64,000 nt of DNA from Sphaerolaimus hirsutus (taxonomy: Eukaryota; Nematoda; Chromadorea; Monhysterida; Sphaerolaimidae). The stretch is taken from NCBI GenBank assembly GCA_964036195.1, contig OZ038456.1, positions 5,580,001 to 5,644,000 on the forward strand, given 5' to 3'. Position numbers and translations under genes: made by a program. The notes beneath the pieces are model-generated. The model had not been told where the DNA came from, made no database searches, and saw only the letters and a list, made by a program, of their open reading frames with translations. This document shows, one piece after another, positions 8,185 through 40,000 of this stretch (the stretch's first letter is position 1; every line of letters begins with the position of its first letter).

Positions 8185-11141
8185 TCACACTTTCTTCAAC
8201 ATATCCATTTTGCCCCCAAAATCGACTGTTGTGTCATTCTTGGCAGTAAGAATTACCCCTTCACTTTCATCACTATCACTGACAAGCGTGGCAGCAGTGG
8301 CAGGCAACCAGGGGGCAGTCCCTGACCATGTAAAATGCCCTGTAAAATGTAAAATGGCATGCAAAGTGTCAAAAGTCATGTTAAATGCCCTGCAAAATGA
8401 CAAATTTACAATGTCATTTTTCAGGGCATTTTACATGACTTCTGACACTTTTTATGACATTTAACACATTACAGGGCATTTTACAGGGTCTGAGACTGGC
8501 ACCAGGCACCCCTCACTTCACACACGGTGATAAACATCCTGCCGCACAAGGAAGCCAGGTATGTGTCACTGGCGCTGGCGTATTTTCTGCATTGGTCAAA
8601 ATGACCGGTGGCTGTGAGCTGGTTGCCCAGGGTCCAGAAAACAGCATTTTTGGATGTGAGCCAACTTGGATGGTATTTCTGAAGGGTGCACTTTGGATGT
8701 GATCAGGTTTCGATTAATTAACATCAATGTCATTTCGGTTCATCATTAATCCCTATTGGGTTTAGTGATGGAATGGCGCCATGGCGCTGGCGCCATTTGA
8801 GGGCGCCAAAGGGCGCCGCGCCATGGCGCCATTGGCGCTTGGCGCCCTTTTTCTGTGGCGCCCTTGGCGCCTGGCGCCCACATTCTGAAAGGCGCCATGG
8901 CGCCCTTGGCGCTTGGCGCCCTTTTTCCGTGGCGCCCTTGGCGCCTGGCGCCCTGCTTTAGAAGGGCGCCAAAAAGGCGCCAGCAAGGTTTCACGGTGAG
9001 TGCTGTGTAAACGAGAAAAAAAAGAAAGCCGCATCCGGGGATGATCTAAATTCGCCAGAAAAATGGACGGAGTGGTGCGAGTGGGTGGAAATCTTTCGTC
9101 CAACGGTTCATCAGATCTGTCTGACGGATCAGAAGACAAGAATGATGGACCGTCTAACTTGCAAAATCATAAACAAACGGATTTAAATCGTTGCAATTAG
9201 GAAACATTGTTTGGAAAGGTTTATTTGTAATGAATGGATTGTTGTCAAATGACAATTTCATTGCGTTTGGATTCGTCATGTGGATTTTTTTCAAAAAAAA
9301 CTTGTTGCAAGCCTTGTTTTTGTTCATTACATCCGAGAACGCGAATTAAGAAGTGAATGCGCGTACAATGGTGCTGTAGAAACATTTTTAGCACACGCAT
9401 GGTGTTGTAGGCACTTTTTTATCCTGGCGCCCTTGGCGCCTGGCGCCTTATTTTCCAAATGGCGCCATGGCGCCTTGGCGCTTGGCGCCCTCTTTCCGTG
9501 GCGCCCCTGGCGCCTGGCGCCCACTTTCTGAATGGCGCCATGGCGCCCTTGGCGCCTGGCGCCCTTTTTCTGTGGCGCCCTTGGCGCTTGGCGCCCACTT
9601 TCTGAATGGCGCCATGGCGCCCTTGGCGCCTGGCGCCATTTTTTCTGGCGCTTTTCCATCACTAATTGGGTTGTTTTGATACAAATTTCAATTGAAAGAT
9701 GAATCGCTGAAAAATAACGTTGTTGCAACCTCAATAAGGTAAAACGTTTGCACAAGTGTGCCCCACCCAGACCCCACTCAGTTGTGGAATGTATTTAGGT
9801 TTAATTGAGGTAGAATAAAAACGACAATTATAATATTTATTTACCTTGAGATTTGCTCTGAACGCAGCATACACATCAACATCATCCAAATCTGCCAGGC
9901 GACCATTAGGCACGCCAATTACATCGCCGCGAGCACAGCTAAAAATAAAAGGAACACAATTTCAGTCACACAGACATACATAAAGGACAGGGTGGCGATT
10001 CGGAGGAACCCCCCACCATTGGAGACCCCTGGGGGCAGGCCCCCAGACCCTGAAACAGTCCCTGCAAAGTGTAAAATACCCTGTAAAATGTCATGTATCA
10101 TGTAAAATACCCTGTAAAACGTCAGGCGTCAAGTAATACACCATGTAAAAGTGTAAAATGTCATGTAAAAAACTCTTTAAAGTGTCATGTGTATCAAAAT
10201 ATTTTTGTACCGTATCCAAATCTAATGTTTTTTGTATTCAAATCTTATGCCCAAAATAAAATTTGAATATAAAAACATAATATTTGGATACAAAAAAAAC
10301 ATAAGATTTGGATACAAAAAAACATAAGATTTGGATAAGATACAATAAGATTTGGATACACCTGACATGTTACAGGGAATGTTACACTTTACAGGGTCTT
10401 TTACAGGGTCTGAGAGTGGGGGGACTATGGCACCTGATGCACACAATCGTGTGCCTGTCGCTGTGTCGCTGTATATGTGTGTATATTTACATCACATATA
10501 GCGATTCACGGTGCTGGCAAACAAAAAAATTCTTTAAATTTTGTTGATTTGACCTCGCAGCCGCATCAGTGCCGTAAGTGTTCGGCAACAACGTGACACA
10601 TCTGCCATTCGAGTACAGCGGCTCCCCGTTCACCCGTTTGCACAGATCTTCCGTTGTGTTCCCTGGGATTGGATGATAAAATAGTTTAATCAGTGTTTCA
10701 AGCAGCTAGATTCATCATATTAGTAAGTTTCAAACGGGATTGACTTTTCGGGATCGGGATCGGAATTTTCACATTTAGGAATCGGGATGGGACTTTCGGG
10801 TTTGTGATCGGGATCGGGATCGCTGAATCCCGGAAATGATCGGCATTCGGTACCCCGTTCGAACGCTATATATTTATAGACGGCTATTGCTGCCAGGAAT
10901 CTGGCTGTCTAAACGGTGGCATTTGGCATTTGTAGTACAAAATGTGTACACTAATTGAGCAGCGAATAAATAAAAAGTACCTACCTATAAACGAATCTGC
11001 CTACGGGTACGAAAATACCTATAAATAAACCTACCTATTTATAGCCAGATTACCTAGTCAGAAATGAAAAAATGCACCTCTGGGCATGCCATATGCCACT
11101 GACACGGACAGTAACGCGACTGCGATTGCAAACTTGTCCAT
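8185..11141 (-). CDS. Secreted C-type-lectin-like protein, paralogue 1
   Basis: Six-segment minus-strand gene: 11141-11078, 10662-10554, 9938-9845, 8678-8503, 8308-8185. Lengths total 567 nt (188 residues) with matching phases. It opens with a signal peptide (MDKFAIAVALLSVSVAYG). The body has a C-type-lectin-like layout: Cys, NGRCVTL, an A-A-x-C stretch, GRLADLDD, an aromatic Y-x-A-F segment, FWTLGN, CRKY, and a closing C...VCE. Sugar or partner binding is unknown; no classical EPN/QPD Ca2+ motif is visible. The last intron, 8502-8309, is an introner splitting the Trp codon of RGAW. It is a tandem paralogue of 13397-15251. Likely secreted for defence or recognition, by family analogy only. 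Confidence 0.8.
8309..8502 (-). mobile_element. Introner in lectin-like gene 1
   Basis: A 194-bp palindrome inside the last coding exon. On the coding strand it begins GTGCCAGTCTCAGACCCTG and ends GGGACTGCCCCCTG. Exact removal joins TG|G (Trp) and gives RGAW-LPATAAT, matching RGAW-VPASANI in the paralogue, whose DNA is uninterrupted here. The right end is CTG, not CAG, so the acceptor is non-canonical unless a nearby AG is used; a later AG 33 nt downstream (GTCAG) would also keep frame. Confidence 0.9.
8763..9664. mobile_element. hAT-type element with GGCGCC-repeat arms, copy 1
   Basis: TIR TAGTGATGGAA / TTCCATCACTA with perfect 8-bp TSD attgggtt (8755-8762, 9665-9672). Both arms are long arrays of ggcgcc-containing units (about 8775-8990 and 9425-9650) around a unique AT-rich core. 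It lies in the intron between the third and fourth coding segments of the lectin-like gene. Long open frames in the arms are by-products of the repeat. Confidence 0.92.
10022..10425. mobile_element. Long introner-family variant in an intron
   Basis: Ends resemble the introner terminus (cagaccctgaaacagtccct on the left, cagggtctgagagtgggg on the right) and the arms carry aaaatgtcatgta motifs. The centre is replaced by aaatctaatgttttttgtat palindromic repeats. Similar arms reappear near 60150 and 61240. It lies within the second intron of lectin-like gene 1. Confidence 0.7.
10727..10868. mobile_element. GGGATCGG-iterated palindromic element, degenerate
   Basis: Begins tttcaaacgggattgacttt, iterates cgggatcggg, and ends ccccgttcgaac. 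It belongs with the complete copy at 60675-61227 that carries an 8-bp TSD. Located in an intron of the lectin-like gene. Confidence 0.7.
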
Positions 11142-11670
11142 GCTCAAGAATGTTAGATGCATATGTTTGTGAGGGAAACTTTAATTGCAAAAAAATGATG
11201 CCACTAATTTGGAAAACGGTTGCAATTGTCCTTATCATAACATGAATGTTATCATTTTAATCAGTTCACCTCATGCATAGAACTTGTATTTATTGTTGGG
11301 CAGTATTTGGTAGGGTACATCGGCAGGCATACACCGGTACAAAATAAATAAGCCATGAAAGATTTATTTTTAATTTTCTGAATCAAATGGACTTCAGCCG
11401 GTTCAGAGGATACCTAGTAGCTATAAAAAAGTGCATCTGGGATAGATAGATAGCTGGAGCGTTTCGGGGGTGGGTGGTACCCCAACTTCTGAACTCCTGT
11501 AACACACAAACGAGAATTAAAAAAAATTGAGAACGTATGAGAAAAATTTGGAAAAAATTTTATTTTATAAGTGCAAAAATATATCAAGGCATTGGATAAT
11601 TTGCTAAATGCGTCGCGAGTGGGAATGCACAAAATCGCTAAAAGTAGGTTAGCGATAGCTAAAAACAGGT

Positions 11671-12462
11671 ACCGTATTACCTCGAATTATCCCCCCCCCT
11701 TGAATTAACCCCCCCCCCCCTCAAAATGGGCTGGAGAAATAATAAACCCCCCCCCCCTCGAAATACCCCCCTCCGGAATGATGTACATCATGTATGCAAT
11801 GTACATGATATATTTATTACTACCGTATTTCCTCGAAATACCCCCCCCTCGAAATACCCCCCCCCTCGTTTGACCCCCCCTCTCGGAGCCACTATGAAAC
11901 AATCACCCCCCCCCCCCAAATTGAGTGTAAAGGGAACGTACATGATAATAACTGTAGTTTGTGTTCTGTGTACTGCAGAACACACGTTAAAACAATGTCG
12001 GTGTCACGTTAGAACAGTGTACACACCATCTACATACTAATATTAGTCTACAGAACCTTTTAAATGGCGGTTTTTGTTGCATTTTTCGACGTCTGCGTAC
12101 GTTTCAGACGACAATTTCGTACTTGGTTTTCAAAAATTTTCTTGTGAAATAATAACCCCCCCCCCTCGAAATACCCACCCCCTCGTTTAACCCCCCCCCC
12201 CCCCTTTCGGGACCACTATGAAACAATCACCCCCCGGCCGGGGGGTATTTCGAGGAAATACGGTATACTCACACATTTATTACCGTTATTGTGTAAGAAA
12301 TAGCGTATTCTTTACTATCAATTTCCTCGAAATTTTCTGGCGAAATAATAAAAAAAACCCTCAAATAAGCCCCCCCCCCCTCGAATTAACCCCCCCCCCC
12401 CCCTTAAATTTTGCTGGCGAAATGATAAACCCCCATGGGGGTATTTCGAGGTAATACGGTAT
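11671..12462. mobile_element. Cluster of TA-flanked C-run MITEs
   Basis: At least three overlapping or nested copies: taccgtattacctcgaatta at 11670, accgtatttcctcgaaatac at 11823, right ends tcgaggaaatacggtat near 12265 and tcgaggtaatacggtat near 12460. Interior text (gtaaagggaacgtacatga, ttctgtgtactgcagaacac) matches the 16.8-kb copy. Confidence 0.8.
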
Positions 12463-12660
12463 ATAACATATACATAGATAGTACACAAAGCTATCCTATG
12501 TACATACATAGTACACAAAATAGCTGAAAATAGGCAATAGAAGAAATCAACGGTGATTTTGAATGTTATAAACTATAAATCGGTGTAAGAATTGGTTAGA
12601 ATTTTGAGCGAAAATTGGCTAAAATTTTTCAAAATCGCTCCAGATAGATAGATAGCTAGG

Positions 12661-12996
12661 GTGTCAAAAAATTTTTTTACGGAAAACGGAAATTGGAAAA
12701 AAAATTTCAGCGGCCGGAAAACGGAATGGAAAACGGAAAAAAATTTGCACTTGGCGGGAAAACGGTAACGGAAATAGAAAAAAAATCAGTCGCCGGAAAA
12801 CGGGAAAAGGGGACGCCAGTAAAAAGGAAAACAGAAACGGAAAAATGAAATTTGCATGGAAAAGGGAAAATTCAAAAACAAATAAAATTTGCTGAAATTT
12901 TGCTGCAAGTGGAAAACATTTGCAGAAATTTTGCTGGAACATTTACATGCAAACGGAAAAAATTTACCTGCAGAAAACGGAAAACGGAAATTTGAC
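12661..12996. repeat. Palindromic cggaaaacgg-iterated element
   Basis: Terminal gtgtcaaa and tttgacac enclose dozens of iterated cggaaaacgg/ggaaaac motifs. The flanking atagatag occurs on both sides, a plausible 8-bp duplication, though this flank is itself repetitive. Confidence 0.65.
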
Positions 12997-13396
12997 ACCA
13001 TATAGATAGCTGGACGATTTGGGGGTGGGGGGGGGGGGTTTAGGGGATAGTATATAGTTTAGGGGTAGATAGATAGCTGGCGGATTTGGGTGGGGGGGGG
13101 GTAACTCCACCCCCTCCCCAAGTAAACCCCTGCTATTCTACCCCGATATTTACGTCGTCATTTAATTCACGGGTATGTTTTATTACAGCAATCAAAATGT
13201 AAATATGTCAAATATCACCACTCAACTGTAATGAAATGATAACTAAGCAATTAGAGCAGCATCACAAAATTAGGTACTTAAATGTTCCAATTCGATCGTA
13301 CAATCCTATTCACAACACACTATATTTGTGAAATTTTCCCAAAATCACCATCACATGTACACATTCAGTTTATCAACTGTCACATCAGCCCTATAA

Positions 13397-15251
13397 TCAT
13401 GGATCAACCATTGTCCCATTTCCAGCGACAATAATGTTAGCAGATGCTGGCACCCAGGCACCTCTCACTTCACACACAGTGACAAGATTGGCTGTGCAAG
13501 TGTCTGCCATATATTTGTCTGGGGGCAGTCCCAGACACTGTAAAATGCCCTGTCAAATGTCAAATGTCATGCAAAGTGTCAAAAGTCTGACATAAATGAA
13601 AATAAATGTGTAGTGAATGAAGTTTGCCATGTTGAAGGGTATTTTACATGACGTTTGACATTTTGCTTGACATTTCACATTTCACAGGGAGGGTATTTCA
13701 CAAAGTCTGGGAGTGGCACCAGAGCCACTGACATATTTTCTGCACACATCAGAGATGCCAGTTGATGTGAGCTGGTTGCCCAGTGTCCAAAACAGGGCAT
13801 AGATGGAGGTCAGCCAACTTGGGTGATATTTCTGGATGGGTGTTGAATATTTGTAATTCAAATGCCACTTAAGAGAATAAATATGCGCATTTTCGGACGG
13901 TTATAATCAATAATTTTCTAATAATTCCGACGCCATAAATTAAACTACCCAAAAATGACATTTTGGTCCAACGTAACTTTGCTAGACCTTGAGATTTGCT
14001 CTGAAAGCCGTGTACACATCGATATCGTCCAAATCTGCCAGTCGGCCTCCAGGCACACCAAGCACATCCCCGCGTGAACATCTAAGAGAAAATTGAGGAA
14101 ACAGTCAGCCACAGAAAGTGGCATCAAAAGCAGTGCTGATGATCAGTTGTGATCTACCGTAAGGTGCACTGTGAAGTGCACGTGAAGTGGTTTAAGGCCC
14201 CCCTGTGATCACACTGCAGAGCGTGATCACACCTGATCACCAGGCACTTCACAGCCAGTGATTGTACTTCACAGCATGATTATGCCTGATCACCGACGGC
14301 CAACACGTCAACACACTTCACGAATTTCCTAGCAATTCAAATGTAGATGATTTAAACTGTGAAGTGTCTGTGTGAAGTGCATGTCATTGGTGATCAGGCT
14401 ATGAAGCCTCATCACGCTTTGAGCCTGAGGCTATAGGGGGGGGGGGGCTTTAGATTACTTCAGTGCACTTCACAACCACTTTATTTGCAGTGAGCAAGAA
14501 CAAAAATCCAACACAATCACCTAGCGGCAGCGTTTGTGCCGTATGTTCCAGGCATCAATAATGTAACACATCTGCCATTTGAGTAAAGTGCCTCTCCATT
14601 GACACTTGAGCACAGTTCTTCCGTTGTCTTTCCTGTTGGTGAAAGTTTATTGTGAATATATTGTTACTTTAAGAGTATACAGCAAATCCTCGAATAAGAC
14701 CCCCCCCTCGAATAACTCCCCCCCTTGATTAACTCCCCCCTGTTAGCGAGGTGAGGAAAAAATAACTCCCCCCCTCGAATAACTCCCCCCTCTTGAATAA
14801 CTCCCCCTCTGGATGAAAACGATACAATACAAAAATACAAAATAATATATGCCTATACAGCAGCGACAGCAGATACATGATATGTATGCAGTGTATACAC
14901 ATCATTTTGTTGTTGTTAGACAGGTAAATACCTGAATTACATGTGTTTACACACTGCATCGACACAATGAATTAAGTCCAAGTTTCTGGGGAAAAATTGA
15001 CTCCCCCCCTCGAATAGCTCCCCCCCTTGAATAACTCCCCCCTCTAAAACGTCTGAGGAAAAAATAACTCCCCTGGGGTCTTATTCGAGGATTTAGGGTA
15101 TAATGGAAGTATAGAGTAGATAATACACAATGTGTAATACTTTTAGAATTTACATGAAGAAATGTTTTTATAAAAAAATATAAATACCTCTGGGGATGCC
15201 ATGTCCAACGGAAAGAGATAGTAACATAATTGTGATGCCAAAATTGTCCAT
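13397..15251 (-). CDS. Secreted C-type-lectin-like protein, paralogue 2
   Basis: Coding segments 15251-15188, 14632-14521, 14081-13988, 13831-13720, 13518-13397 total 504 nt (167 residues). Same architecture as 8185-11141: signal peptide (MDNFGITIMLLSLSVGHG), then ELCSSVNGEALYSNGRCVTL, CSRGDVLGV, GRLADLDDIDVY, FWTLGNQLTSTG, and a terminal CTANLVTVCEVRGAW block. Exon borders are shared with paralogue 1 except for the introner, which here splits the Ser-Asp junction (SGS|DKY) and is absent from paralogue 1. Conversely this gene reads straight through RGAWVPAS. The C-terminal tail is shorter. Function is inferred only from the fold-like cysteine pattern. Confidence 0.8.
13519..13719 (-). mobile_element. 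Introner in lectin-like gene 2
   Basis: A 201-bp inverted repeat. On the coding strand it begins GTGCCACTCCCAGAC and ends GTCTGGGACTGCCCCCAG. Splicing TCT G|AC restores SGSDKYMADTC, aligned with SASDTYLASLC of the uninterrupted paralogue. It has both a GT donor and an AG acceptor exactly at the element ends. Confidence 0.93.
14158..14490. repeat. Iterated tgaagtgcac inverted-repeat tract
   Basis: Intronic tract of lectin-like gene 2 with many direct and inverted gtgaagtg / cacttcac / tgatcaggc motifs. It resembles a MITE with motif-iterated arms; termini are unclear. Confidence 0.5.
14683..15101. mobile_element. C-run MITE (aaatcctcgaataagac variant)
   Basis: Inverted ends aaatcctcgaataagacccc and gggtcttattcgaggattt bound internal ccccctcgaataactc blocks. 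It lies in the first intron of lectin-like gene 2. Confidence 0.75.
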
Positions 15252-15530
15252 GTTTTGATATGTGATAAAAATGGAGCTCAAAGGGCAATACTAGGGACTG
15301 AAAGTCGCAATTATTTACAGTAGCGGGTCTAGCCCACAGCGTGCTTTTGCTTATCACTGCAAATTTGTTAATGTATCTTATGGCTGGAATTGAAATTTAT
15401 TCATCTAAGGCTACTGTTAAAGTTTGCATTTAAGTTTGTTAATAGCAGAATGTTTATTATCAGGGTTTTCGCTCAGTTTTTTTGCTTCTCTGCATTTACC
15501 TATGTAGGTAGGTAGATTGGGGGCAGGCCT

Positions 15531-15728
15531 GATACGCACATCTGCCCGTTACGCCCATTTTTTTCACTTGACACTTTTTCAAGTGATTTTCAGATATGAG
15601 AAAAGTGAAAAAAAAGTTGCGCAATCACATTAGTGAACTTTTTTCACGTCACTCATATCTGAAAATCACTTGAAAAAGTGTCAAGTGAAAAAACGGGCAA
15701 ATGTGCGTAACGGGCAGCTGTGCGTATC
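15531..15728. mobile_element. Palindromic MITE, TIR tgatacgcaca
   Basis: A 198-bp inverted repeat: left arm ctgatacgcacatctgcccg then ttcacttgacactttttcaa; right arm mirrors it and ends cagctgtgcgtatcag. The loop is about 30 bp. A related fragment, ggcaggcctaatacgcacat, occurs at 36126. Confidence 0.8.
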
Positions 15729-15747
15729 AGTGCAAATGAGATGCAGC

Positions 15748-16634
15748 TAGTGATGGAAAAGCGCCAGAAAAAATGGCGCCAGGCGCCAAGGGCGCCATGG
15801 CGCCATTCGGAAAGTGGGCGCCAAGCGCCAGGGGCGCCACAGAAAAAGGGCGCCAGGCGCCAAGGGCGCCATGGCGCCATTGAGAAAGTGGGCGCCACGG
15901 AAAGAGGGCGCCAAGCGCCAAGGGCGCCATGGCGCCATTTGGAAAATAGGGCGCCAGGCGCCAAGGGCACCAGGATAAAAAAGTGCCTACAACACCATGC
16001 GTGTGCTAAACATGTTTCTCCAGCACCATTATACGCGCATTCAGATCTTAATTCGCGTTCTCCAGGATGTATTGACAAAAACAAGGCTAGGAACAAAATT
16101 TTTTTGAATAAAATCCACATGACGAATTCAAACGTAATGGAAATTGTCATTTCACAACAATCCATTCATTACAAATAGACCTTTCCAAACAATGTTTCCT
16201 AATTGCAACGATTTAAATCCATTTATTTATGATTTTGCAAGTTAGACGGTCCATCATTCTTGTCTTCTGATCCGTCAGACAGATCTGATGAACCGTAGGA
16301 CGAAAGATTTCCACCCACTCACACCACTCAGTCCATTTTTCTGGCGAATTTAGATCATCCACGGATGCGGCTTTCTTTTTTTTCGTTTACACAGCACTCA
16401 CCGTGAAACCTTGCGGGCGCCTTTTTGGCGCCCTTCTAAAGCAGGGCGCCAGGCGCCAAGGGCGCCACGGGAAAAGGGCGCCAAGCGCCAAGGGCGCCAT
16501 GGCGCCTTTCAGAATGTGGGCGCCAGGCGCCAAGGGCGCCACAGAAAAAGGGCGCCAAGCGCCAATGGCGCCATGGCGCGGCGCCCTTTGGCGCCCTCAA
16601 ATGGCGCCAGCGCCATGGCGCCATTCCATCACTA
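15748..16634. mobile_element. hAT-type element with GGCGCC-repeat arms, copy 2 (inverted)
   Basis: Reverse-oriented sister of 8763-9664, nearly co-linear through the core. TIR TAGTGATGGAA / TTCCATCACTA and perfect 8-bp TSD gatgcagc (15740-15747, 16635-16642). No transposase. Confidence 0.93.
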
Positions 16635-16786
16635 GATGCAGCGTGTCTAAAAAATTGAAAAATTATGAACCACGAAAAAGCAGTTACGGAGTTATAACAA
16701 ATCTTTTGATGCTACCATCGATATCAGAAATGTTCTTGATCCCGACCCCGACCTTGAATAATACGCATTGCGTTGCAAATTCATAC

Positions 16787-17203
16787 CGTATTTCCTCGAA
16801 ATACCCCCCCCTCGTTTGACCCCCCCCCCTTTCGAGACCACTATGAAACAATCACCCCCCCCCTCGAAATACCCCCCCCAGATTGAGTGTAAAGAGAACG
16901 TACATGACAAATACTGCAGTTTGTGTTCTGCGTAGTGCAGAACACACGTTAAAACAATGTCGGAATCACGATAGAACAGTGTTTATACCATCTACGTACT
17001 AATATTGGTCTACATAACCTTATAAATGGCGGTTTTTGTTGTATTTTTCGACGTCTGCGTACGTTTCAGATGACTATTTCGTACTGGGATTTAAAAAAAT
17101 TTCTTGTGAAATAATAACCCCCCCCCCTCGTTTAACCCCCCCCCCCCTCTCGGGACCACTATGAAACAATCACCCCCCGGGGGGTATTTCGAGGAAATAC
17201 GGT
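16787..17203. mobile_element. TA-flanked C-run MITE
   Basis: TACCGTATTTCCTCGAAATA at the left and its complement ggtatttcgaggaaatacgg at 17184-17203. Interior is near-identical to the 11.8-12.27-kb copy, including a ttcgacgtctgcgtacgttt segment. Confidence 0.85.
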
Positions 17204-17622: not shown

Positions 17623-17649
17623 GTTCTGATGACTTAATACTAAAGTAAA

Positions 17650-18041: not shown

Positions 18042-21000
18042 ATGTATCCCGTTTGCATAATCATCGCCACCATTTGGCTTACGTTTCAGCCGCTGTGCTC
18101 TTCAGTTTCTGGTTTGTGTAAACTACTTAGATTTGTTTACTCCATCTACCCCCCCCACACCCCCTCGAAATACCCCAGGTCTGAGCGAGCTTATGAAAAA
18201 ATACCCCTCGATTTACCCCTCTCCGGGCATTGAAACTGCAATAAAAAATCTCGCATTGCAGTGGATTGAAAGCATCCAATAAGCCAACATTAATAGCACA
18301 GATTTGACTGATATAAAAACACAAGAAAATGATATTTACATCCATTCAGCCTGCGGACAGTCGTCAAAATCACATCCAGCAGCACTCAAACTTTCCCGAG
18401 ATGGAATAATTGGCCTGGAAAATGGCATCATTGGCGGAAATGAAGCCAATCCCCATTCGTACCCATGGATGGTGTGGATGTTGAGAGTAGAACCGGTTGA
18501 TAAGGAACGTCGACATTCCTGGTGGCAGTCCCAAGCCCTGTAAAGTGTAATGTCAAGTGTAAAATGACATGTAAATCTGTCAATTGTAATGCAAAGTGTC
18601 AGGCAAGGTGTCAACTGTAAGGCATAGTTATATTTTGTTCTGTTTTGTTTTGATTGGTAGGTATTTTACATGACTTTTTACACTTAACTTTACAAGGCTT
18701 GGGACTGCCCTCAGGTATTACATATGTGGTGGGGCAATGATCAGTGACAGGTGGATTGTCACAGCGGCACACTGTGTCCACAGGAAGAATACCATGTAAA
18801 ATTATGAGTTTTGAGGCTTTCGCATGGTGTTACTTCTTCTCTTACAGGGAAACCCAGCTTACTGAGAACCCGCCGCCAGCGAGCATCAGCTCAGCTGTCA
18901 AGCAAAAAAAATACATCAATGACACCAAATTTTGCAAATTGCTGCCTGCAACTTTCTATCTACCTATTAGATTTACTCTTCCATAGAGCTGACAGCTTGA
19001 TGCCAAATATAGACGACTGCATGTTAATTTGTTGTCTACCAGCTGGCAGCGAGTTGTGAAGCTGTCAAGTTCTGAGCTCTGTTTCCCTGGGCCAGTCCCG
19101 CAAATTGAGAAGGCCAATGGCAACAGAAATTACTTCTTTTTCACTTCGCTTTTGCCAATTTACTTGCCATTTCACTTCACTTTTACTTAGCTTTTGCCAT
19201 TTTACTTCTCACCTCTCAATTTGCGGAACTGGCACCCTGTGTTGAATTGTGGATATGTGATATATTGTGCCCCATTCGATAACACACAGGCAGCCGGTCG
19301 GTGTAAATGATATGAAACTTTTCATCGGCAGACATACGACATCAGTCAAAAACGACAGACATTCTGGCACTGTGCCAAAACGAATAATTGTCCATGAAGA
19401 TTATAGGCGGGAATGGAGTGGCAAGCTGTACAACGATATTGCATTGATTGAGTTGAGGAATCCAATTAGATTCAGGTTTGTTATGATTATGAAATGCATG
19501 GACAAATTTTGGGCTTTTGTCCAGTACACACTACCTTTAGCTACCACACTACTTTGCTTTTTACAATCATAAAAATTTTGTTACCTCTAGGCTTCAAAAT
19601 CTAAAAGAAAATTTTGATAAACATTTTTATGTTGTTTTATTTATAATCAGCATGTTTTTGTAAAGATCCATAAAATATTCAAAACAATCTTGTATGCTTG
19701 ATGCGGTTTTTCCGAATTTCGAAAAACAACATGAAACAATTATATTTACAGTGACAAAATCCAGCCAATTTGCCTGCCAGAAATGAGTCAAGACTTCACA
19801 ATGTTGAAGACCAGTCTCGTTGCCGCAGGTGTGTGTCAGAGTTGTTAAAATTACTGAAATCTTTCCAAAGTATACGTATCTGTAAAATACTTTTTACTCA
19901 CACCTATATACAGAAAATGCAAAATACTTTTCTACCCATTCTGCGGTGTGTGTGCTAGTGATGTTAAAGGCACCGGGAAAAATGGCACCGCACCGCACCG
20001 GCACTTTTGCCAACGCATGAAAAGGGCACCTGGCACCCTGGGGCACCGGCCAGAAAATGGCACACCACCGCATCAGCACCGGTGCCTTTTGGAAACAATG
20101 GCACCGGCACCGAAGGGCACCGGCGGGTTGCCGGTGCTAGCACCGAAAGGCACCGCACCGGGCTGGAATTTCTGAAGTAAATATCGGGCAGTTTCTCAGT
20201 GGTCTCACATTTGGAAGTGCATATTTCCATGAATTTTCAACCGATATTGATGGTTGAGCACTTAAAATGATCAGAATGATGTGGCAATCACTTTTATGAA
20301 GCAATTACAATGATTACAAATGAAAGATCAAATATGTAATTCTCTGCAATGTCCATAGCCACTATTGTCTACTGATCGGAGTCGTTGCTGTACAGAGAAT
20401 GGAACTATCTCTGTTATAAACTGACAACAAATTTTGAACAAACAAGTAAGATAAATATAAAATATAAAAATGATTTAAAATTAAACAAAATTTTAGATTC
20501 GCTCATCAGATCATGTATCTTGTAAAATGGATTTCACAGTAGGTATATTTATTTGATGGGAGGTTTAGAAAATAGGCAAAAACGGTTGGGTAAATATATC
20601 GCTGTTTTTTGAAATATGAATAAGCACAAACTATGGACAAAATTGCACAGCACATGAAGCCTTGGCCAGTGGCTTTCCCGGTGCCTTTTACTTTGGCCCT
20701 GGTGCTAGCACCTTTGGCAAAAAAATGGCACCGCACCGCACCCGCACCGGTGCTATTCTGAAAAAAAATGGCACCGGCACCGGCATGGCACCCCTGAAGA
20801 TTGCAATGGCACCGCACCAGCACCGGTGCCGGTGCCCTTCGGTGCTTCAGTAAACATCAAAAATTACCTGCATTATTTCAGGTTGGGGTGACACAGTGAC
20901 AAAAGGGAATGCTCAATATTCTGCTAATCTAAAACAGGCTCTCCTTACAACAAAAGATTGTGGCGGCAATTCAAAAGGAAACTTGCTTTGTGCAGCTGGC

Positions 21001-23193: not shown

Positions 23194-26100
23194 TCAAAGC
23201 AAGAACTTTCTAAACGGCTTAAGGGTCTTCTCACTTTCAAACATCACTCTGACATTCCTCCGTCCATAGTGATTGCAGTAAATATTGACACAAACCGCAC
23301 CAATTTCATCAAAATCTACATTAATTTTGCCTGGTTCATCAAAGGATTCAAAATGTGCACAAGCAGCTTTTGCTAAACAAAGCAATGATCCAGCCCTCTT
23401 CAAACTGTGACCACCGAACAAAATGGCAGTGGTTTCACTGATTTCTCGTAAAATCAATATTGCCTGATTTGAAGCTTCACCACTTTTTGCCATTTGTGAT
23501 GCCAGCAGAAGCCGTTCAGCTGTCTGTTTTTGTCTTTGGAACAGGGAAACATTTAAATTGGGCAGGAAACTTTTGAGATAATCCAATTTTGTTTGGACTC
23601 GTTTCACATCGTCCTGCGAATTTAGTAGACCAGTGAAACTCAAGAAATGAATTAATATAATGAGTACATGAGGCTGGGGATGGCCAATGGTTTTTATAAA
23701 TACAAGCATCAAAACTGTGTTTAAATGCAGCTAAGTATTTTATGTGATATCCAGCCAATCTACTTCCACATACTCCCACAGTGTGAACCATCACTTCCAC
23801 AGTGTATTAGCCTTCTCTTTTAACATTATTTACAAACACTATGCCATGCCCAACTTCACTTCAAGTCACAAATGTTAAACAAAAAGCAATATACTTCATG
23901 ATTCAACAAAAAAAAATGGATGTTTTGCCAGAAATAACCACTTATGATGCTATCCGATGGCTCCACAGCCATTCTATAACACTGCCTAAGTACGGCCACT
24001 TGTCAGATACATACATCGACTCATAAAACCATATTTGGGACCTTTTGAAAAAAGTTTTTATCCAAAATTTTGTTTTCAAAAACATGATCATTGAAAAAAC
24101 GCTTTTTCCATCACTAGATGAAGCACAAAAATTGACTGTATACTCACATCAGAGCAGAACGGCAGGCCGATCAACTTGTCATACATTCCTAGTATTTCAT
24201 GCGCCTTTTTCATGCATTGCAATTTGATCTTTTCATCACACTGACACAACCCCATCTTGACTTCACAAATATGCTGCACCTCTAGCAGTTTTTTGGCATC
24301 CACAACCAGCTGGCCACAATTCTGGCACAAACAAGCATCAGAGGCCAATTCAATGTGGGCAAATCTGCCGTCGGAATCTGACAGCTTGCATGCGGGGCAA
24401 TCGCAGCTAAAGTGGTAGTTTTCCTGGGGGCAGTCCCAAGCCCTGTAAAGTGTAAAGTAAAGTGTCAAATGTAAAGTCAAATGTAAAGTCAAGTGTCAAT
24501 CAAAACAAAAAAAGAAAAGAGTTATTACTGAAATTAGCATGACAATTGACAGTTTACTTTGCATTTGACTTTACATTTGACACTTTACTTTGCATTTGAC
24601 TTTACATTTGACACTTTACTTTACACTTTACAGGGCTTGGGACTGCCACCTGAAGGATCTGCACTCGAGTAGGTCTTGGTTGAAGACCACATTTTGGCCC
24701 GTAGCAGTTGAGCAATTCCTCATTGGGTTTGATGTCACAGGTGGTGCGTGCCTGAAAAGCAGGGGTGTTATAGATTTTGACCCTCCTGGGGGGTTGGATA
24801 GGTAGCTGAGCAGCCTCCGAGAATAGATAGATAGCTGGAAAAAATTTGGGGCGAGGTTGGGGGTTGTTTGGGGTTGTTTGGGGGGGTTGCAGGGGTTTGA
24901 TATACAGGCTTTTCTAAGGTGTATAAGGAAGAAAAGGGGAAAAATCGCTAAAGGTAGATGAAAAACGGCTAAAAATGGGTATATAAGCACATATAGTACT
25001 AAAATAGCTGAAAATAGGCAGTCAGATACATGAACTAGTGATTTAGGGTGTGAAAATCTACAAAAAAAGTACGAAAAATAGCGATTTTGATTGAAAATTG
25101 GGGTATACTTTCTTAAAAATCGCGCCAGATAGGTTGATAGATAGCTGGCCAATATGGGGGGGGGCTTTAGGGGATAGTAGCCCAAAACTTTGCCTCCGGT
25201 ATAGATAGATAGCTGAACAGCCTCTGAGATAGATAATTAGCTAGGCATTGGGGAAGGGGTAACCCCCCAACCCACCTTTCCTACCCCTGCTGGAAAGAGC
25301 ACTTTTACTTAGCAATTAACAATACAAAATTATACTACTGTAAATGCTAGTATGAACCAAAAATTAACCTGCATGGCTCCACACTTCCCAAATATCATGT
25401 GCACATTAGGCACACACGAATGGTTCAACATAGCAGCCAATGTACAGTAAATGCCAGATGCCTTGTAACCATCAGCCAACTGTAGTGCTTTTGATGCATC
25501 AGCATTGTTTCTGGGGGGCAAGTGCTCGCACATGCCCTGCTTGTTGCAAACGAGTCTCATAATGCAGCCTGAGAGGATCTCGGTGACTTTTGTGATCCTC
25601 TGATCAACATCTGTGCTCATGGCACATTTCTCCAGAATTTGACTGCAATGGGCATCAAACTGTAGAATAACTGTGTTCAGACTGGTGAAGAAATCTAAAC
25701 ATCATACTTACATGAAATTCTCATTTTTACACAGCACTTCTGATAGGAATTTTGATAAACTTGAAACTGAGGTCATTTCACTGTTGCTCTGCTGCGCCTC
25801 GTGTGTAATCAGCTGATCAAAGGTACCACATTCTGTGAATTCTGAGCCAACTATTTGCATTTTTGAGATCATGGCTCTAATTGCCAAAAGTTGCCCATAT
25901 ACTTTGACACCTGTGTTTGTTGCGGCATTTCTCACAGCACCACACTCGTACTTGTGACTGGCCTGTAAATTGGGAGGCAGCAGACCAAATATTCATCAGT
26001 ATTATGAGTAAGTGGAAGCCATTGTTTCCTCAAACCTCCCAGCCAGAATCTCTGCACTTTTCATCACAGTATCTGACATTTTTATCAGCACAGCAAGAAC

Positions 26101-30847: not shown

Positions 30848-31031
30848 TCCGACATGGCCTTATGCTCGTCACAGGTGCATCGAATTGCAAAAAGCAAACA
30901 TTCCACCACAAACGCGGTTATTTTACACAAATTAAATTCCAAGTCATTTGCAACTGTGAAAGATTGTAAAGACTTTTTTGAATAGCTAGTGGTTTTCTAA
31001 CAATCTTCAAATCAAAATAAGAAACTACACA

Positions 31032-34000
31032 ATGTCTGAAAACAATCCAACGCCGGCAACACGATCGTTTTCGGAAGCGAGAGAAAGAAAGAAATCAGCT
31101 GTGGCAGATATAGCATCTATCCGGGTACCACTCCCAGACCCTGTGAAAAGCTCTGTAAAATGTAAAATGTCAAGCAAAGTGTCAAACGTCATCGAAAATG
31201 CCCTGCAAATTGGCAAACGTACGTTTGCCATTTTGCAGGACATTTTCCATGACTTTTGACACTTTGCATGACATTTGACATTATACAGGGCTTTTTACAG
31301 GGTCCGGGAGTGCCCCCTGATGTCTGACAAAAGAAAGGTGAGCACTGTTGGATATATTTAAAACGAAAACCTGAAAAATTCATTCTCGACCCCCCAAATG
31401 CCCTTGGTTGTTACGTATCCCAGACTAGGGTTGGGACCGCTAACCGACCCGAACCGAACCGAACCGCGGTTCAAATCATATTTTGGAACCGAGAACCGGG
31501 AACCGGAACAAAAATTTTTGAGGAATCGAGAACCGATATCCGAACCGAAATTTTTGAAATTCCCAACCCTATCCCAGACGCTGCTGACCTAATCGATTGA
31601 GACGAACTGAAAATAAGTATCCATAAAAATTTCATCAGCATTCATCAGATTTCATCAACTCCCTCCATCCCTAGTTTGTTATAGTATTTATAAATGAAAA
31701 TAAGTACCTAGGCAATAAGGCACATGAACTACCGATTTTGAAGATGAAAATGGGCAAAAATGCAGAAAAATAGCGATTTTTAGCAAAAATTAGGGGCAAA
31801 ATTTCTCAAAACAATTTCCGGATAGCAAATAGGTAGTTGATTTGGTGGGTTACCCCCCCACACCATTATCCACCCCTGAAACCTTTGTAACCCATAATAA
31901 TGCAGAGTGAAGAACCCAGCGGCCCAGGGAACATAGTCAGAGCGTGGTGTGAGCGGACCACCTTCCACGGTGTCCCAGATTTGTACTACGCAGTGAGAAT
32001 TGTCACTCAAATTGTCTGGTGCCAGTCCCAGACCCTGTAAATGCCCTTTAAAATCTCAAATGTCATGCAAAGTGTCAAAAGTCAGGGAAAATGCCCTGCA
32101 AAATGGCAACCAAGTTGCCATTTTGCAGGGCATTTTCCATGGCTTTTGACACTTTGCATGGCATTTGACATTTTGCAGGGAATTTTGCAGGGTCTGAGAG
32201 TGCCCCAGGGCGACAATTATTTCTGCACTGTTTATTACAGCAACAGTATATATCGCGTATGCTACAGACAGTTATTTTTCCAGGCCGCACTACAAAGTGT
32301 CCCACGTGTACCAGAAAAATCCCACATTGGACTTTCCATACGTGATTTTGTGCAACAGAAACAGAATCAATGCTAAAAAGGTGCAGATTTGTCACTACTT
32401 TCGAAGATGTGAAGCAGGAGTATCTTGAATTTCGACATATTGTATAGATATTTTGATACTCCAGGGGCGGGGAGCATTTTGAGGGATGCGCAGGAGTTCA
32501 ATAGTCTGTATTTCCTCGAAATACCGCCCCCCCCCCTCAAAATGATCACTATGAAAAGCAGTTTTTTGCGCAACAAAAGTTTATTGTGCAGGAGAAAACT
32601 CTGGTGATGGAATGTCGCGATAGTACCTCTACGAACGTCATTTTTGTATTATTTACCCAAAAACCCTATATTTTGTTAAAACCCAAAAATATATATATTT
32701 TTGAGACCCCCTATCCAACGATGGAAAAAACACAGAAATTGAACACAGAAACTCATTGAGTTTCTGTGTTTTTGTTTTACACAGAAACACGGAAACTCAT
32801 AAATTTTGAAAAACTCAAAACTCAAATGAGTTTTATTTTGGAGAACACAGAAACACAGAAACACGGAAACACAGAAAAGTTTTTTGAGTTTTTGTGTTTT
32901 TTTTCAGTGAAACGGTTGAATGCACATTAATTCAGTTAAACTAAACAAGATAAGATAAGCAAGTATAGGTAGTATGTACATAATGTATTCATCTAATATT
33001 TTATAATGGTACAAAAAAGAAATTCAAGATGGCATGCACATCTCATGGTGGATTTGACAATTACAGTTTCGACATTTAAGTATACCTTATTACCTCGAAC
33101 TAACCCCCCTTGAATCAACCCCCTCAAAATGGACTGGTGAAAAAATCCCCCTCGAAATACCCCCCTCCGGGATGATGTACACCATGTATCCAATGTACAT
33201 GATGTATTTATTACTGCTAATTTGCATCGCAGCTACACATAGACTGTACTAGGTTGTGTAGCTATCTACATGTTTATTTCAAATATATCCTGTTTGTACT
33301 CATTTATAACCTGTTTTGGGTACGTAAATGCCTACTATTTTCTATGATCTGTACAAAACTTTCTGACAAAATAATAAACCCCCATGGGGGTATTTCAAGG
33401 TAATATGGTAGTTGTAGTTCAAATCAATTCCATACAGTGCCATACAGTCCCAGTTCCATACAGTCCATTGAAGAATTTTGGAGTACTGCATAAATTGTCG
33501 TTTCTGGGCATTTTGTTGCTGGTGTTGTGATGTTGATGTCCTCATTGTGGACATTTTTATGGACTTTTTTGACACTTGAATGAATACACATATGTTATGT
33601 GGGGTTAAAACATGTGCAAAACCAATATTTTATAAGAAAACCACTGTTTCCAGATCGAAATGCTGTAAATCAAAAAAATTTTGGGGAAAACTCAATTTTT
33701 TTGAAAAAAACTCGAGTTTTTTAGAAAAAAACTCAAAAACTCGAGTTTTTACAAAAAACACAGAAATAAAAACAGAGTTACTCAAGTTTTTTTCGAGAAA
33801 AAAACTCAAAACACAGGTATTCATTTTTGAAAAACTCAAAACACAGAAAGTGTTTTTTTTTGGAGAACTTACCCATCGTTGCCCCTATCTCGGGTCAGGG
33901 GGGGCGTAGAAAGTCGCCTTTCTCAATGCAGCCCCGACATGAAACCTCATTTTGTTAAATTTTCAGAAAAATCCGCCCAGTGGTTGCAGAGCTGTGAGTG

Positions 34001-37000
34001 TTCAAACTTTGGCGGACCCCCCCCCCTAAAATGCTGCCCCAAAAATCCAATATGATGGCAGTGCGCCTACGAACGAATGGCGCTAGCGTCATGGCGCCAT
34101 TCTGTCACTTTGAAGACAAAATTTTAGTGGGGGGTTTGCCGCGCTCCGTGATTAAAGAGCCCCCGCCCACCCGCTCAAAAATCCTGGATACGTCCCTGAG
34201 TGACATATCACATTTCAGCTCTCAGCGCTGGGACTGTTACACATTGCGAGCCCGATCTACGACAGTTTGGACATTTTCGATTTCCAAGAAAGTCCGCTTT
34301 TGCCTTCCATGCAATCGGACGGCAGCTTCAAAGGTCTCGTCGGTGAAACTATGAAAAGGATCAATGAAAAAATGTTGAGAGATTGGGACGACGCGTATCC
34401 CAGGATCAGAGACATGTTCGGAGAAAATCTGGTCAATTCCGCAAAATGAGAAGTGAAATGGGATGTGAGAGGTGAAGTGAAAAGTGAAATGATAAGTGAA
34501 GTGCAAAGTGAAGTGAAAAGTGAACTGCAAAGTGAAGTGAAAAGTGAAATGATAAATGAAGTGCAAAGTGAAGTGAAAAGTGAACTGCAAAGTGAAGTGA
34601 AATATGAAATGATAGGTGAAGTGAAAAGTGAACTGTAAAAAGTGAAAAGTGAAATGATAAGTGGAGTGCAAAGTGAAGTGAAAAGTGAACTGCAAAGTGA
34701 AGTGAAAAGTGAAATGATTAGTGAAGTGCAAAGTGAAGTGAAAAGTGAACTGCAAAGTGAAGTGAAATATGAAATGATAAGTGAAGTGAAAAGTGAACTG
34801 CAAAGTGAAGTGAAAAGTGAAATGATAAGTGAATTGAAAGAAGAAATAAAATGAGAAGTGATAAGTGAAAAGTTTAGTGGATGATAGTCCTCATTTCTTT
34901 TACTCTTCATTTCACTTTTCACTCGCCATTTCACTTCTCCACTTGCGGAACTGCCCCTGGTCGATTTCATGGATCATTTGAAGCACACCTGCGAGGAAAC
35001 GTTTCCATTCAATGCGAGGTGTTCACAGTTCGAATCATTCCTCACACGACGTTCCAACCAGCCAAATTACCACTGCCCAATTGCAGCTGCGTGCAACACA
35101 GTGAATCCCCGGCCGCGCCATCGTATGACTGCTGTGGCAACATCACCTACTTGCTCGCCGGCACCAGGGGGCAGTCCCAGACACTGTAAAATGCCCTGTA
35201 AAATGTTAAATATCATGCAAAGTGTCAAAAGTCATGAAAAATGCCCTGCAAAATGGCAATCGAGTTGCCATTTTGCAGGGCATTTTCCATGACTTTTGAC
35301 ACTTTGCATGACATTTGACATTTTACATGGCATTTAACAGGGTCTGGGACTGCCCCCAGGGGCATTTGCATGCTGCTAGACAACCCGACCACGGTGCACA
35401 CGGCCGGTTAGAATTTTGGTCTGACTGAACGTTTTGGCTTGAGACAGAATAGATTACCGTATATACTTCAATAAGACAATAAGAAATAAGGTAGTTATTC
35501 ATTCGTTTGAAGTTTTGGAGAGGGGGGGGGGTTATTTTTTGAAAATTCAGAAAAACTTGCACCTTATCGATTGTATGGATGCAAACCGTCAACTCATTTA
35601 ATCCAGGCATCCAACTGTCCAACACCAACAAAAACAAAGTATCCACGATATAAAATTGAAAAATTCACGTGCATTGGCCTCCAATCATTCGAATACACAT
35701 TGTGGATACACATGTCAAATACCTAGATTCAGGAGTCTCGAATGGGGGGGGGGGGGTTGGGGGAACACCGGAGGCCGATATCTATCTATCCCGGAGGCCG
35801 CTCAGCTATCTATCCATCCCGGAGGCAAAATTTTGGGCTACTACCCCCTAAACCTCCCCCCCCAAATCGCCCAGCTATCTACCTATCTGGAGCGATTTTT
35901 TCAGAAACTATACCCCAATTTTCGCTCAAAATCGCTATTTTTCATACCTATATATAGATTTTAACCTCTAAAATCACTGGTTCATGCGTCTAACTGCCTA
36001 TTTTCAGCTATTTTAAGTACTATATGCTCTTGTATACCCATTTTGAGCTATTTTACACCTACTTTTAGCGATTTTTCTCCCTTTTCTTCCTTCTATGCCC
36101 CGAAAAAGCCTATATATCGAACGGGGCAGGCCTAATACGCACATCTGCATAAGCCTACATATCGAACCACCACAACCCCCCCCCCCCAACCCCCCTAAAA
36201 AATTTTTCAGCTATCTATCCCACCGGAGGAGCGATTTGCTATCTATCCAACCACTCGGAGGTCAAAATTCAAGATACCCCTGCCTAGATTATGGAATTAT
36301 CCACGAGGAGGGAGTTATTCAGGGGTGGGGATGTTATTCAAGGGGCAGATGTTTTTCAAGAGTGTCTTATTCAAGGATATACAGTAGATACACAATTCCA
36401 TGCTTCACTTTTAAAATGTTTGTACTCACGAGCGCGTATCAAGCATTTTGCGTTAATGTCCGTGTTGCTGTCTCTGTAATTTATGTGACAAGAACATCCG
36501 TCTCCAGTTGGAACCCAGTCTAGAACGCGAATTTTTTGCATGTTTCGAATCCAGAGCCTTTTTCATCAGGGATGCAGACGAGAATGGAAATAAATCAAAT
36601 GGATCCCCGATTGGATCTGTACGACACGGTGAATGCGCTGGAAAACACTGCTGACTCTGGTGCCAATCCCAAACCCTGTAAAATGTCAAATGTCATGCAC
36701 AGTGTCAACGGTCATGGAAAATGCCCTGCAAAATGGCAACTCGGTTGCCATTTTGCAGGGCATTTTCCATAACTTTTGACACTTTGCATGACATTTGACA
36801 TTTTACAGGGTCCGGGAGTGCCCCTTGGATTCCTTGTCTCGCTGAGCTATGACAAATTTTCAGTGAGTATTCAAGATCCGTTCGATTAGGGTTCAAACGG
36901 GACGGGATCGGCATTGCTTTGGTGAGATTTCGTATCGAGACCTCAAAATATCGAAAATTGTCGGGATTCGGGATTGGGATCCCGTTTGAACCCTACCTTT

Positions 37001-40000
37001 GATTGCAAAAAATATCGCTCTCAATCAGTTAGAAACAAACACAACACAGCTGTCAGACTCCGCCTCTTTCATAGTGCCACCGGGACAATATGTAGAAGTC
37101 AAAATGCAACCGAAAAATGTAAGCTACGTGACGCCGCCTTTTTTCCCAAAATGGCAACCCGTGTGCATGACTGTACGAACCGATGACCAAAAGCAACGGG
37201 TACTGAAAGGCCATTATTCGACTGCTAAATGCAGCCAGGTGCCGATCTCAGACGCTGTAATGTACTGTAAAATGTCAAAAGTAATGTAAAATGACAAAAG
37301 TAATGTAAGATGTCCGGTAAAACGGCAAGTTTGCCATTTTCCAGGGCATTTTACGTAACTGTTGGCAGTTGGCACTTTGCATGACATTTGACATTTTACA
37401 GGACATTTTACAGGGTCTGGGACTGACCCCAGGAGTGTCAAGTGCAAATCGCCTATGAACAATGCAACTGCACACCTATGCTAGAAAGGCACTCTCCATA
37501 CAATCAGACCACGTGCAATCAAACAATGGTCTCAGAATGTGTAATGAATACATATACAGATAATGACAAGAATACCGACTTTGATTGCGGTACCACTAAT
37601 GAAAAAAGGTGCAGTTTGAAATGGACAACTTGAAATATTTTGGGGTTTTGGGAAAACATTCTGTGCTTTCAATTTTTTTTAATGATAATCTGTGTTTCAG
37701 TGTTTTTCCTCTAGAAAATTTACTGTCTGTCCAAGTTGAAATATTAGAGAAATTTTGTTCATAGAAAGTACTTTTACACTTTCTGTGATGAAGCCACCGA
37801 AGTCAGCGTCTTCTACCACCGAATCCAGCAGCTCCAAGACCGTAGTGAGAAACGGCCTTTAGAGTGGTTGATTTCCCGTTGTAGCCGAACGTCCACTTGT
37901 CGACAGCCAAGTTGAGTTTATTTCGTAGTTGCGTGTTGAAAGGGGTTCAATATTGTTTCAGGTACTTTATTTGATCAGATACAGCCACATATAAAAGCGC
38001 AAAGCCTAGTGAGCTTCCTAGTCGAAGTTTCTATCGCTAGCTTATTTTCGTTCAGAAGCTTGGGGTCCGCAGACTGAAGTAAAAACTCTCAAAGTAGCTA
38101 AGACACGGAAATCACGTATAGAAAAACAGCTACAGTAATTTCCTAATACAAATGCACAAATAAGACATAAATGCAGCAAATAAACACATTTAGCCGAAAC
38201 AGTTGCCTTATACTGTGCGTGCGTACATTCAAATAATTATGGTAAAGAAATACCAGGTACAAATTGGGCTAATGGAAAAACTATTAATCTTGAGGCGCGA
38301 AGTCGGCAAACTCGGCCGATTTACTAATTTGCTTCAATTTGTCAGAAAACATTGACGCACATTGGAACTAATATGAAAGGGTTGGGAAATCTAAATAGCA
38401 GTGCAAATGTTCCTAATGACGTAAATAGAACAGGGTATATTCAACATAATAATAATAATCACTTCCTGGAAACGTATGTTGAATAAACAGTAAACTGGGA
38501 CTTATTCGGGGTAAATGGGTGTTGTAATTGAGCAGAGTCTTTAATATATTTGATTGAGCGGGGTATTATAATTATTAAGTAAATATAAATAGTTGTGAGC
38601 GAGGTTATGACAATTATGCCTATGCGAAGGGCTTTGTACAGTAAATGCTAGTTACACACAGGGCACCATTTCTCTATTAGGACGCTAGCCTAGATAATTA
38701 CGCAGCACGTAAATATTTACAAGTTTTGACTTTTGTAAATTGCAAGTAAACTATGCAAATGTATATATAATCATGATCAGAAAATTACGGCGAGTTGAAT
38801 GAGCCTAATTTCATGTTAATACACCTAATAATAACTTATTTGACTTTTTAACCTAAATATTTCACATAAACATATCTATTAATCATAAAACACTTTCCTA
38901 ATTAAATATTCTCCATGGATAAATAATATAGTGCAGGAAATATAATTTGATATTTTGCGTGGTAAATAAATATAGTGCATGAAAAGTAAATTAGTGCAAA
39001 TAAGTAAATGTGCGAATATGAGCCTAATTATCAATTCTCTGTATTTCTTTATCCATCCATTTTGCCACGGTCAGCACACTCCGGGCGGAAGAGTTGCTGC
39101 ACCCCGTTGTTGCAGCAACGTCACATGCTGGTGGTGGTGGGCGCCAAAGTGATGAGTGGCGTTTCCACAGTCGCCTCGGTGGTGAACGTGGTCGTGCGCG
39201 AAGTCGTGGGCGTGCGTGAAGTTGCAGGTCCGGTTGCTGGCGATGCCAACGCCGACCTAGCCTGATGATGAAGCAGGTAGTTGCCCGTGTCGCTTCCTGC
39301 GCGTTCGCGTGAGGTGAATTTGCGGATATCGGGCATGTGAACACTGTCTCTGTTCCTGGCTCTGACTTGTCCCTCATCAGCTGAACTTTCATCTGGCTGA
39401 ACGTATGCTGATAGTGACTTTGCCATTCTGTCCTCTGTTTCTGCTCTCCTGGCAAATCTGACGGACTGTGTTGAGTTGGATCTGGCTCTCCTCTTGATTG
39501 CTGGTCTCAACTCTGTTTTGCGTACTTTTCTCTGTGGGTAATTGGTCTCTTTTTGAGTTGACTTCTTGATAGTGTATCTGACGGCTCTGAAGCATAGCCA
39601 TATGCACTTGAATGGACACACTATGCATTTCCATATGCATGTGTATACGCATGGTGGAATCACTGGTTTCCCTGTGGCAATTCTCCAATTGTACCACAGG
39701 TATCCTGCAGCAACAATTCCAGCTACCAGGATTGTGATTCCCAGCAGCATTGCGATTGTGTTGATGATCACTTGAAAGGGTCCTTTCAGCATTCCTCCCA
39801 TAAAGTTGGTATACCCCTTTGACACTCCAGATATATAGTGACCATATGCTTTGCCGATTCCTGCTGCTGTCTGTCCAATTCCAGCTCCAATGCCTTCTAT
39901 TGAATTTCTGATCACTCTGGGATCCAATGACATGTCTGCTGTATAATCGATCAACTGGTTCTGCACATGCTCCAAATTCTGTAGTCTCTGAATCTGGCCT

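Follow-up and report, generated by a model that had tools for sequence, protein, structure and literature searches.

Background

Introners, families of similar introns dispersed through a genome, were recognised in 175 of 3,325 genomes surveyed (5%), with two animal groups among the hosts (Gozashti et al. 2022, PMC9860276); the string 'nematod' is absent from the main text of that paper. For Caenorhabditis, the excerpted text of PMC9169325 reports no source found for new introns. The present analysis concerns a 64,000-nucleotide stretch of DNA (the window; positions 5,580,001 to 5,644,000 of contig OZ038456.1) from the 348.5-Mb, 762-contig genome of the nematode Sphaerolaimus hirsutus, and a family of short palindromic repeats with copies within coding exons there, which are read as candidate introners. 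Published systems are compared below as described in excerpts of the cited papers.

The repeats resemble the surveyed introners (PMC9860276) in being dispersed, mutually similar putative introns with inverted ends and short target repeats that would usually leave mRNA length unchanged, and in carrying one splice site while taking the other from the target repeat; they differ in having CWG (CAG or CTG) as target repeat, so that the two bases supplied at the right end of an insertion may be AG or TG. Introners of the dinoflagellate Amoebophrya likewise have a hairpin, inverted repeats, direct repeats of 3-5 nt at their boundaries, and many non-GT-AG members, but no family-specific inverted repeat is reported in the excerpted text (PMC7789003), whereas the single family described here has ends that can be recognised, prefers AG, and lies in sense in the cases examined. 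Among transposons, the NuwaI group of PHIS (PIF/Harbinger) is found in animals and combines a CWG target repeat with an inverted repeat usually starting with GGG (PMC4482050). The CWG repeat, the animal host, and, at one end, the GGG start are common to both. Unlike the NuwaI autonomous candidates, which mostly carry transposase and Myb/SANT genes (PMC4482050), the present element is a short non-coding palindrome with GTG at its other end and an apparent intron role read from DNA. TG 3' splice sites in human introns were described as never being the sole acceptor, each having an AG no more than 28 nt away (Szafranski 2007, PMC2374985); an AG is also nearby here, mostly 19 nt upstream, but in BCKDHA and CNOT9 its use would shift the frame and TG would need to be the productive site. 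No report of a nematode or Harbinger-type introner was recognised in the literature search, outside which Gozashti 2025 (PMC12130899) fell. Introners are a known kind of element, found here perhaps in a new phylum and with a new splice-site logic.

The repeat family and its copies in the window

Nine copies in the window had been reported by a sequence-only reading, and all nine are real and lie at 8309-8502, 13519-13719, 18522-18714, 24424-24649, 31125-31319, 32019-32208, 35168-35359, 36660-36827, and 37239-37432; each is named below by the first coordinate of its interval. The CAG that ends the element in that reading belongs instead to a 3-bp direct repeat, whose left copy stays in the upstream exon and whose right copy it is; the element proper is correspondingly shorter. 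A GT donor with an AG acceptor had been assigned to the family as a whole; this holds for five of the nine copies (13519, 18522, 24424, 32019, and 37239) and fails for 8309, 31125, and 36660, which are GT-TG, and for 35168, which is GG-AG. The copies are as follows (element without direct repeats, strand, description).

8312..8502, minus strand: element copy in one of two paralogs without a Pfam match; repeats CTG (8503-8505) and CTG (8309-8311); GT-TG
13522..13719, minus strand: element copy in the paralog of the 8309 gene, where another codon is the site; repeats CTG (13720-13722) and CAG (13519-13521); GT-AG
18522..18711, plus strand: element copy in a trypsin-family exon, upstream of CGG...TAAHC; repeats CTG (18519-18521) and CAG (18712-18714); GT-AG
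24427..24649, minus strand: element copy in a SMYD-type SET gene; repeats CAG and CAG (24424-24426); GT-AG
31125..31316, plus strand: element copy in a short open frame ahead of a possible donor; repeats CGG and CTG (31317-31319); GT-TG, with an AG 9 nt upstream
32019..32205, plus strand: element copy in a DEG/ENaC gene near the first transmembrane region; repeats CTG and CAG (32206-32208); GT-AG
35168..35356, plus strand: element copy in an exon of a DEG/ENaC gene; repeats CAG and CAG (35357-35359); both ends GG-type, hence GG-AG
36660..36824, plus strand: element copy in an exon of a DEG/ENaC gene; repeats CTG and TTG (36825-36827); GT-TG, with an AG 9 nt upstream
37239..37429, plus strand: element copy in the cysteine-rich exon of a DEG/ENaC gene; repeats CAG and CAG (37430-37432); GT-AG
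5156..5333, no strand assigned: tenth full-length copy, a profile match outside the sequence-only list of nine

The ends of the element are written as GGGGCAGTCCCAGACCC, and the 188-bp consensus, GTGCCAGTCCCAGACCCTGTAAAATG...TTTTACAGGGTCTGGGACTGCCCC, pairs with itself nearly end to end, leaving its outermost four bases (GTGC versus CCCC) unpaired. The two ends thus differ, one being GGGG and the other GTGC, which carries the GT; among 207 termini tallied in the DNA examined, 101 were GTGC and 69 GGGG, most of the loci having been picked by GTGC/GTGG ends. The hairpin of the 32019 copy was predicted at -129.8 kcal/mol (z -17.6). Sampled copies ranged from about 110 to about 480 bp, with the right end as chosen by a script.

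A search of the genome for the 20-base terminus, which the sequence-only reading had proposed as a check, returned 1,543 exact matches (775 + 768), and the reversed control returned none. A 13-base core of the terminus was matched 19 times in the window when 2 mismatches were allowed; shuffled sequence gave an expectation of 0.84. A profile built from 33 copies, whose mean pairwise identity is 79% (range 49-98%), recovered ten full-length copies in the window (the nine and 5156-5333) as well as fragments. In 18 loci of 10 kb each on contig C1, 37 full-length copies were found; the copy number in the whole genome is probably about 10,000 or more, an extrapolation from these loci, which form a biased sample because they were picked for carrying an exact terminus. 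The family spans unrelated sites, and its similar sequences end at predicted intron boundaries. A terminus search of IMG/VR gave 0 matches.

Direct repeats and target

Copies are flanked by 3-bp direct repeats, mostly CAG or CTG, with CGG/CGG and ATG-type repeats also present. Repeat pairs were counted in 60 C1 copies, 30 with CAG and 30 with CTG on the left, giving CAG/CAG 23, CTG/CTG 18, CTG/CAG 7, CAG/CTG 1, other 9, and no right end 2; the script that chose right ends gave credit for resemblance to the left repeat, a rule that overstates equal pairs and does not favour CAG over CTG. CWG stood on both sides in 49 of the 60, a sample preselected for CWG on the left. Outside the repeat, C was found at -1 in 31 of these 49 copies and G at +1 in 32 of 49, from which a CCWGG-like target is concluded.

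Restoration of coding exons

In the restoration test, the element was removed together with one direct repeat and the joined frame was compared with homologs (proteins and one paralog pair). Exact removal re-opened the frame and brought back conserved sequence for window copies. At 18522, a trypsin domain spanning the junction was restored (Pfam E 7e-13), and gaps in its alignment to an elastase structure lie only away from the junction, as do those between the SMYD2-like segment restored at 24424 and the SMYD2 structure. DEG/ENaC (ASC) domains cross four junctions in two pieces, one of which is a composite joined by hand from several exons; a DEG/ENaC protein search found none among 1,828 candidates at 1e-8. 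The two genes carrying 8309 and 13519 are paralogous, with identity in 152 of 205 columns, and neither is interrupted where the other has its insertion, so that each serves as the other's empty site.

Four genes interrupted on C1 were compared with solved structures after removal of the element. CNOT9 (locus L088) aligned over 177 aa and the Na/K-ATPase over 96 aa, both gap-free, and BCKDHA (L075) and ALKBH7 aligned with one gap each, downstream of the junction. An Rcd1 match runs across the junction with E 2.7e-97. The first nine of the closest named CNOT9 relatives were all nematodes, headed by Plectus sambesii at 90% identity. In a receptor gene (L071), an Srx match crosses the junction (E 1.3e-7), and both Srx and Srv, which are nematode receptor families, were matched. 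The protein sets scanned yielded Pfam matches for 3/10, 0/6, 6/10, and 1/10 (weak) members; the BCKDHA and ALKBH7 matches, within the 6/10 set, score below Pfam's cut-off.

The claim that exact removal restores conserved sequence was borne out, with open frames and with trypsin, SMYD, and DEG/ENaC sequence restored. The placement of all nine copies in coding exons stands for the copies backed by homology; 31125 is the weakest window case, an open frame for which no homolog was seen. The five host genes described as unrelated include the 8309/13519 pair of paralogs, and the label 'lectin-like' given to these two is unverified, no Pfam match having been obtained for either.

Splice-site ends and the CAG/CTG bias

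CAG and CTG are expected to be equal by symmetry. Among exact ends in the whole genome, the right repeat was CAG in 883 cases and CTG in 610 (p 1.7e-12), and the left repeat was CAG in 744 and CTG in 646 (p 0.009); the left and right counts differ from each other (p 0.003). Among copies with CWG right ends, a CTG left repeat was paired with a right CAG in 11 of 30, versus 1 of 24 for a CAG left repeat paired with a right CTG (p 0.007). This comparison includes eight CTG-left copies from C2 that were added afterwards, 5 of them with a right end, and a few copies that are mutual duplicates; the first 60 copies of C1 alone give 7/25 versus 1/24 (p 0.049). In the duplicated gene pair L096/L097, which has one common insertion, the right repeat is CTG in L096 and CAG in L097. 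The excess of CAG at the right end indicates that AG is favoured there, as for a 3' splice site.

TG right ends are nevertheless common, including in genes expected to be essential (BCKDHA and CNOT9). Frame-preserving, stop-free GT-AG and GC-AG alternatives were sought within about 30-70 bases, and the five with the smallest length changes were inspected. For BCKDHA, the five inspected of 14 were all GC-AG with exonic donors, and for CNOT9 the five inspected of 40 replace or delete residues in the conserved VKTDEQ. A GT-AG alternative with 6 extra bases exists for 8309, and the scan gave none for 31125 and 36660, where the reference stretch meets a stop; by our reading, the AG 9 nt upstream is in frame in both. 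ALKBH7 was considered as proof of a TG acceptor and was set aside, as a GT-AG alternative with the loss of one codon exists. An AG lies no more than 28 nt upstream in 17 of 18 CTG/CTG copies, and at 19 nt in 11. In BCKDHA and CNOT9 this AG, at 19 nt, is out of frame, so that TG would need to be the productive site. On the results of the scan, the case for a TG acceptor is strongest in these two genes, whose CTG copies suggest either TG acceptors or a rescue route. It may be guessed that the upstream AG would be used in early recognition and TG in the second step, possibly assisted by the hairpin.

Transposon affinity

The family is probably a short non-autonomous DNA transposon of the NuwaI-like (CWG-target) PIF/Harbinger type, the combination of a CWG repeat and a GGG-type inverted repeat making it most like the NuwaI group. 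The 3-bp CWG target repeat of that group is present, and its GGG start at both ends of the inverted repeat is not, the ends here being GGGG and GTGC. At least 163 matches to the Harbinger-type transposase domain DDE_Tnp_4 were found in the genome; most of those listed are alike in length and score, which suggests recent spread, and they are probably close copies of one another. Extra length in this abundant transposase gene was examined as a possible element: a 691-bp piece of one copy (L098) contains no element and, by our reading, consists of two ordinary introns. A search of the DNA examined for long elements gave one 1,065-bp candidate with no open reading frame longer than 104 aa.

Orientation in genes and weighing of the interpretation

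All 12 copies that have homology on both sides and can be oriented (18522, 24424, 32019, 36660, 37239, 8309, 13519, L088, L075, L082, L070, and L071) lie in the sense direction with the GT end upstream; 35168, with GG at both ends, cannot be oriented. Under a codon model that treats both strands alike, 58 copies were scored for the same strand and phase across the exact junction, and sense outnumbered antisense by 20 to 4 (p 0.0015), or by 14 to 4 when the seven tested copies that had supplied training exons were left out. A weaker test, of open frames, gave longer sense than antisense frames (p 0.006).

Several points weigh against reading these copies as spliced introners. Splicing itself is deduced from genomic DNA. 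The homology search favoured sense copies, since the 20 frames scanned, 15 sense and 5 antisense, were picked as conserved-looking, and part of the codon-model training came from tested copies, as stated above. The open-frame test failed to distinguish exact from frame-shifted junctions (p 0.82), and four same-phase antisense copies (L046, L053, L072, and L087) lie in open frames. CTG makes up about 40% of the CWG repeats at exact right ends, so that many copies have no AG, and 35168 has no GT. Equal repeat pairs are inflated by the right-end script, and no transposase copy was tied to the element by its termini.

One of the five antisense frames scanned, that of L053 in a GDT1 gene, gave a Pfam match, and this was confined to a single side of the junction. 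Its candidacy as an antisense exonic copy was rejected, since an ordinary phase-1 intron can account for it.

The inverted ends, the target repeat, more than 1,000 copies, sense orientation, exact exon restoration, and paralogous empty sites together make an introner the best reading, as the sequence-only reading had proposed. The reading of the repeats as introners, copies of a non-autonomous element most like the NuwaI group of PIF/Harbinger, inserted at C/CWG/G and presumably spliced out, is held with high confidence.

An alternative to removal by GT-AG rules is that pairing in the near-perfect stem places the two repeat copies side by side and that a relaxed spliceosome or other machinery then excises the element, as proposed for the introners of Amoebophrya (PMC7789003). 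The stability of the 32019 fold, the CTG copies in BCKDHA and CNOT9, and the GG-AG copy at 35168 would fit such hairpin guidance; a hairpin would, however, serve both orientations alike, whereas the 12 orientable copies are all sense and AG is favoured at the right end, and this route is considered improbable.

Somatic excision of DNA, in the manner of the internal eliminated sequences of ciliates, would account for exact removal between short direct repeats and for copies that are not GT-AG, and nematodes are known to eliminate DNA. That elimination is not known to take the form of precise excision within exons, and neither sense orientation nor AG preference would be expected, so that very little probability is given to it. 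Just as little is given to the view that the copies are ordinary miniature inverted-repeat transposable elements in existing introns, in pseudogenes, or in deleterious polymorphic alleles. Many sampled copies do lack coding evidence on either side, and some of the paralogs may be decaying, but the insertions in CNOT9, BCKDHA, ALKBH7, Na/K-ATPase, SMYD, trypsin, and ENaC fall between conserved codons with homology on both sides.

In the favoured introner reading, a transposase acting in trans would insert the element at C/CWG/G and duplicate 3 bases. Ancestrally, the inverted repeat probably started with GGGG, and a change at one end to GTGC would have created the GT, so that an insertion would read ...CWG/GTGCCAG...CTGCCCC-CWG/.... 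In a sense copy, the left repeat would complete the 5' splice site (CAG/GT) and the right repeat would be the 3' splice site, and splicing would remove the element with one repeat and leave the mRNA unchanged. A CAG target would yield an ordinary GT-AG intron. A CTG target would start as GT-TG, probably spliced less well, and a T-to-A change in the right repeat would improve it. The stronger proposal that the 3' splice site is set by nothing but the transposon's choice of target, with CTG copies as GT-TG introns spliced sufficiently well, with the help of the hairpin and the upstream AG, to be tolerated in essential genes and later made GT-AG by one T-to-A change, is put forward tentatively, at somewhat less than even confidence.

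Other features of the window and genome

A BEL/Pao retrotransposon (39121-47844, minus strand) with one open frame of 2,907 aa lies within the span of the DEG/ENaC gene; two pieces of it were searched and gave a Pao peptidase (E 6.9e-40), a reverse transcriptase, and an integrase. The interval 53040-53447 resembles a DEG/ENaC C-terminal exon and, by our reading, the gene may span about 31.9 to 53.4 kb. A second dispersed repeat, spotted by eye from translated phrases common to open reading frames, occurs at 24628-25236 (minus), 35602-36520 (plus), 53040-53559 (plus), 57914-58553 (plus), and 61808-62209 (minus). A long tandem repeat at 897-3386 translates as repeated FKIVLQEVPICNLNSL.

The mitochondrial genome (contig C762; L028/L029) is 14,754 bp long and 83% AT. 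In most nematode mitochondrial genomes the genes lie on one strand; here ND1 and ND2, named by eye, are on the minus strand. Cytochrome b is in two overlapping frames near 8054-8211. By our reading of conserved positions, COX1 fits table 5 best, with AGR coding for Ser, and a tunicate host was rejected on this ground. Among the 120 of 7,999 COX1 matches listed, the top two stood at 89% and 79%, and the named ones inspected were arthropods, mainly insects, at about 65%; COX1 thus did not point to nematodes, in contrast to the CNOT9 and Srx/Srv matches.

Significance

The origin of new introns is a long-standing question, to which introners are one known answer. A change creating GT at one end would be a simple way for a Harbinger-type element to become an intron maker. 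Because the same element is found at CAG and CTG targets, there is a built-in comparison from which the strength of selection acting on an intron's final bases would be directly measurable within one genome. If CTG copies are indeed tolerated as GT-TG introns, they would represent splicing with TG as the sole acceptor at genome scale in an animal.

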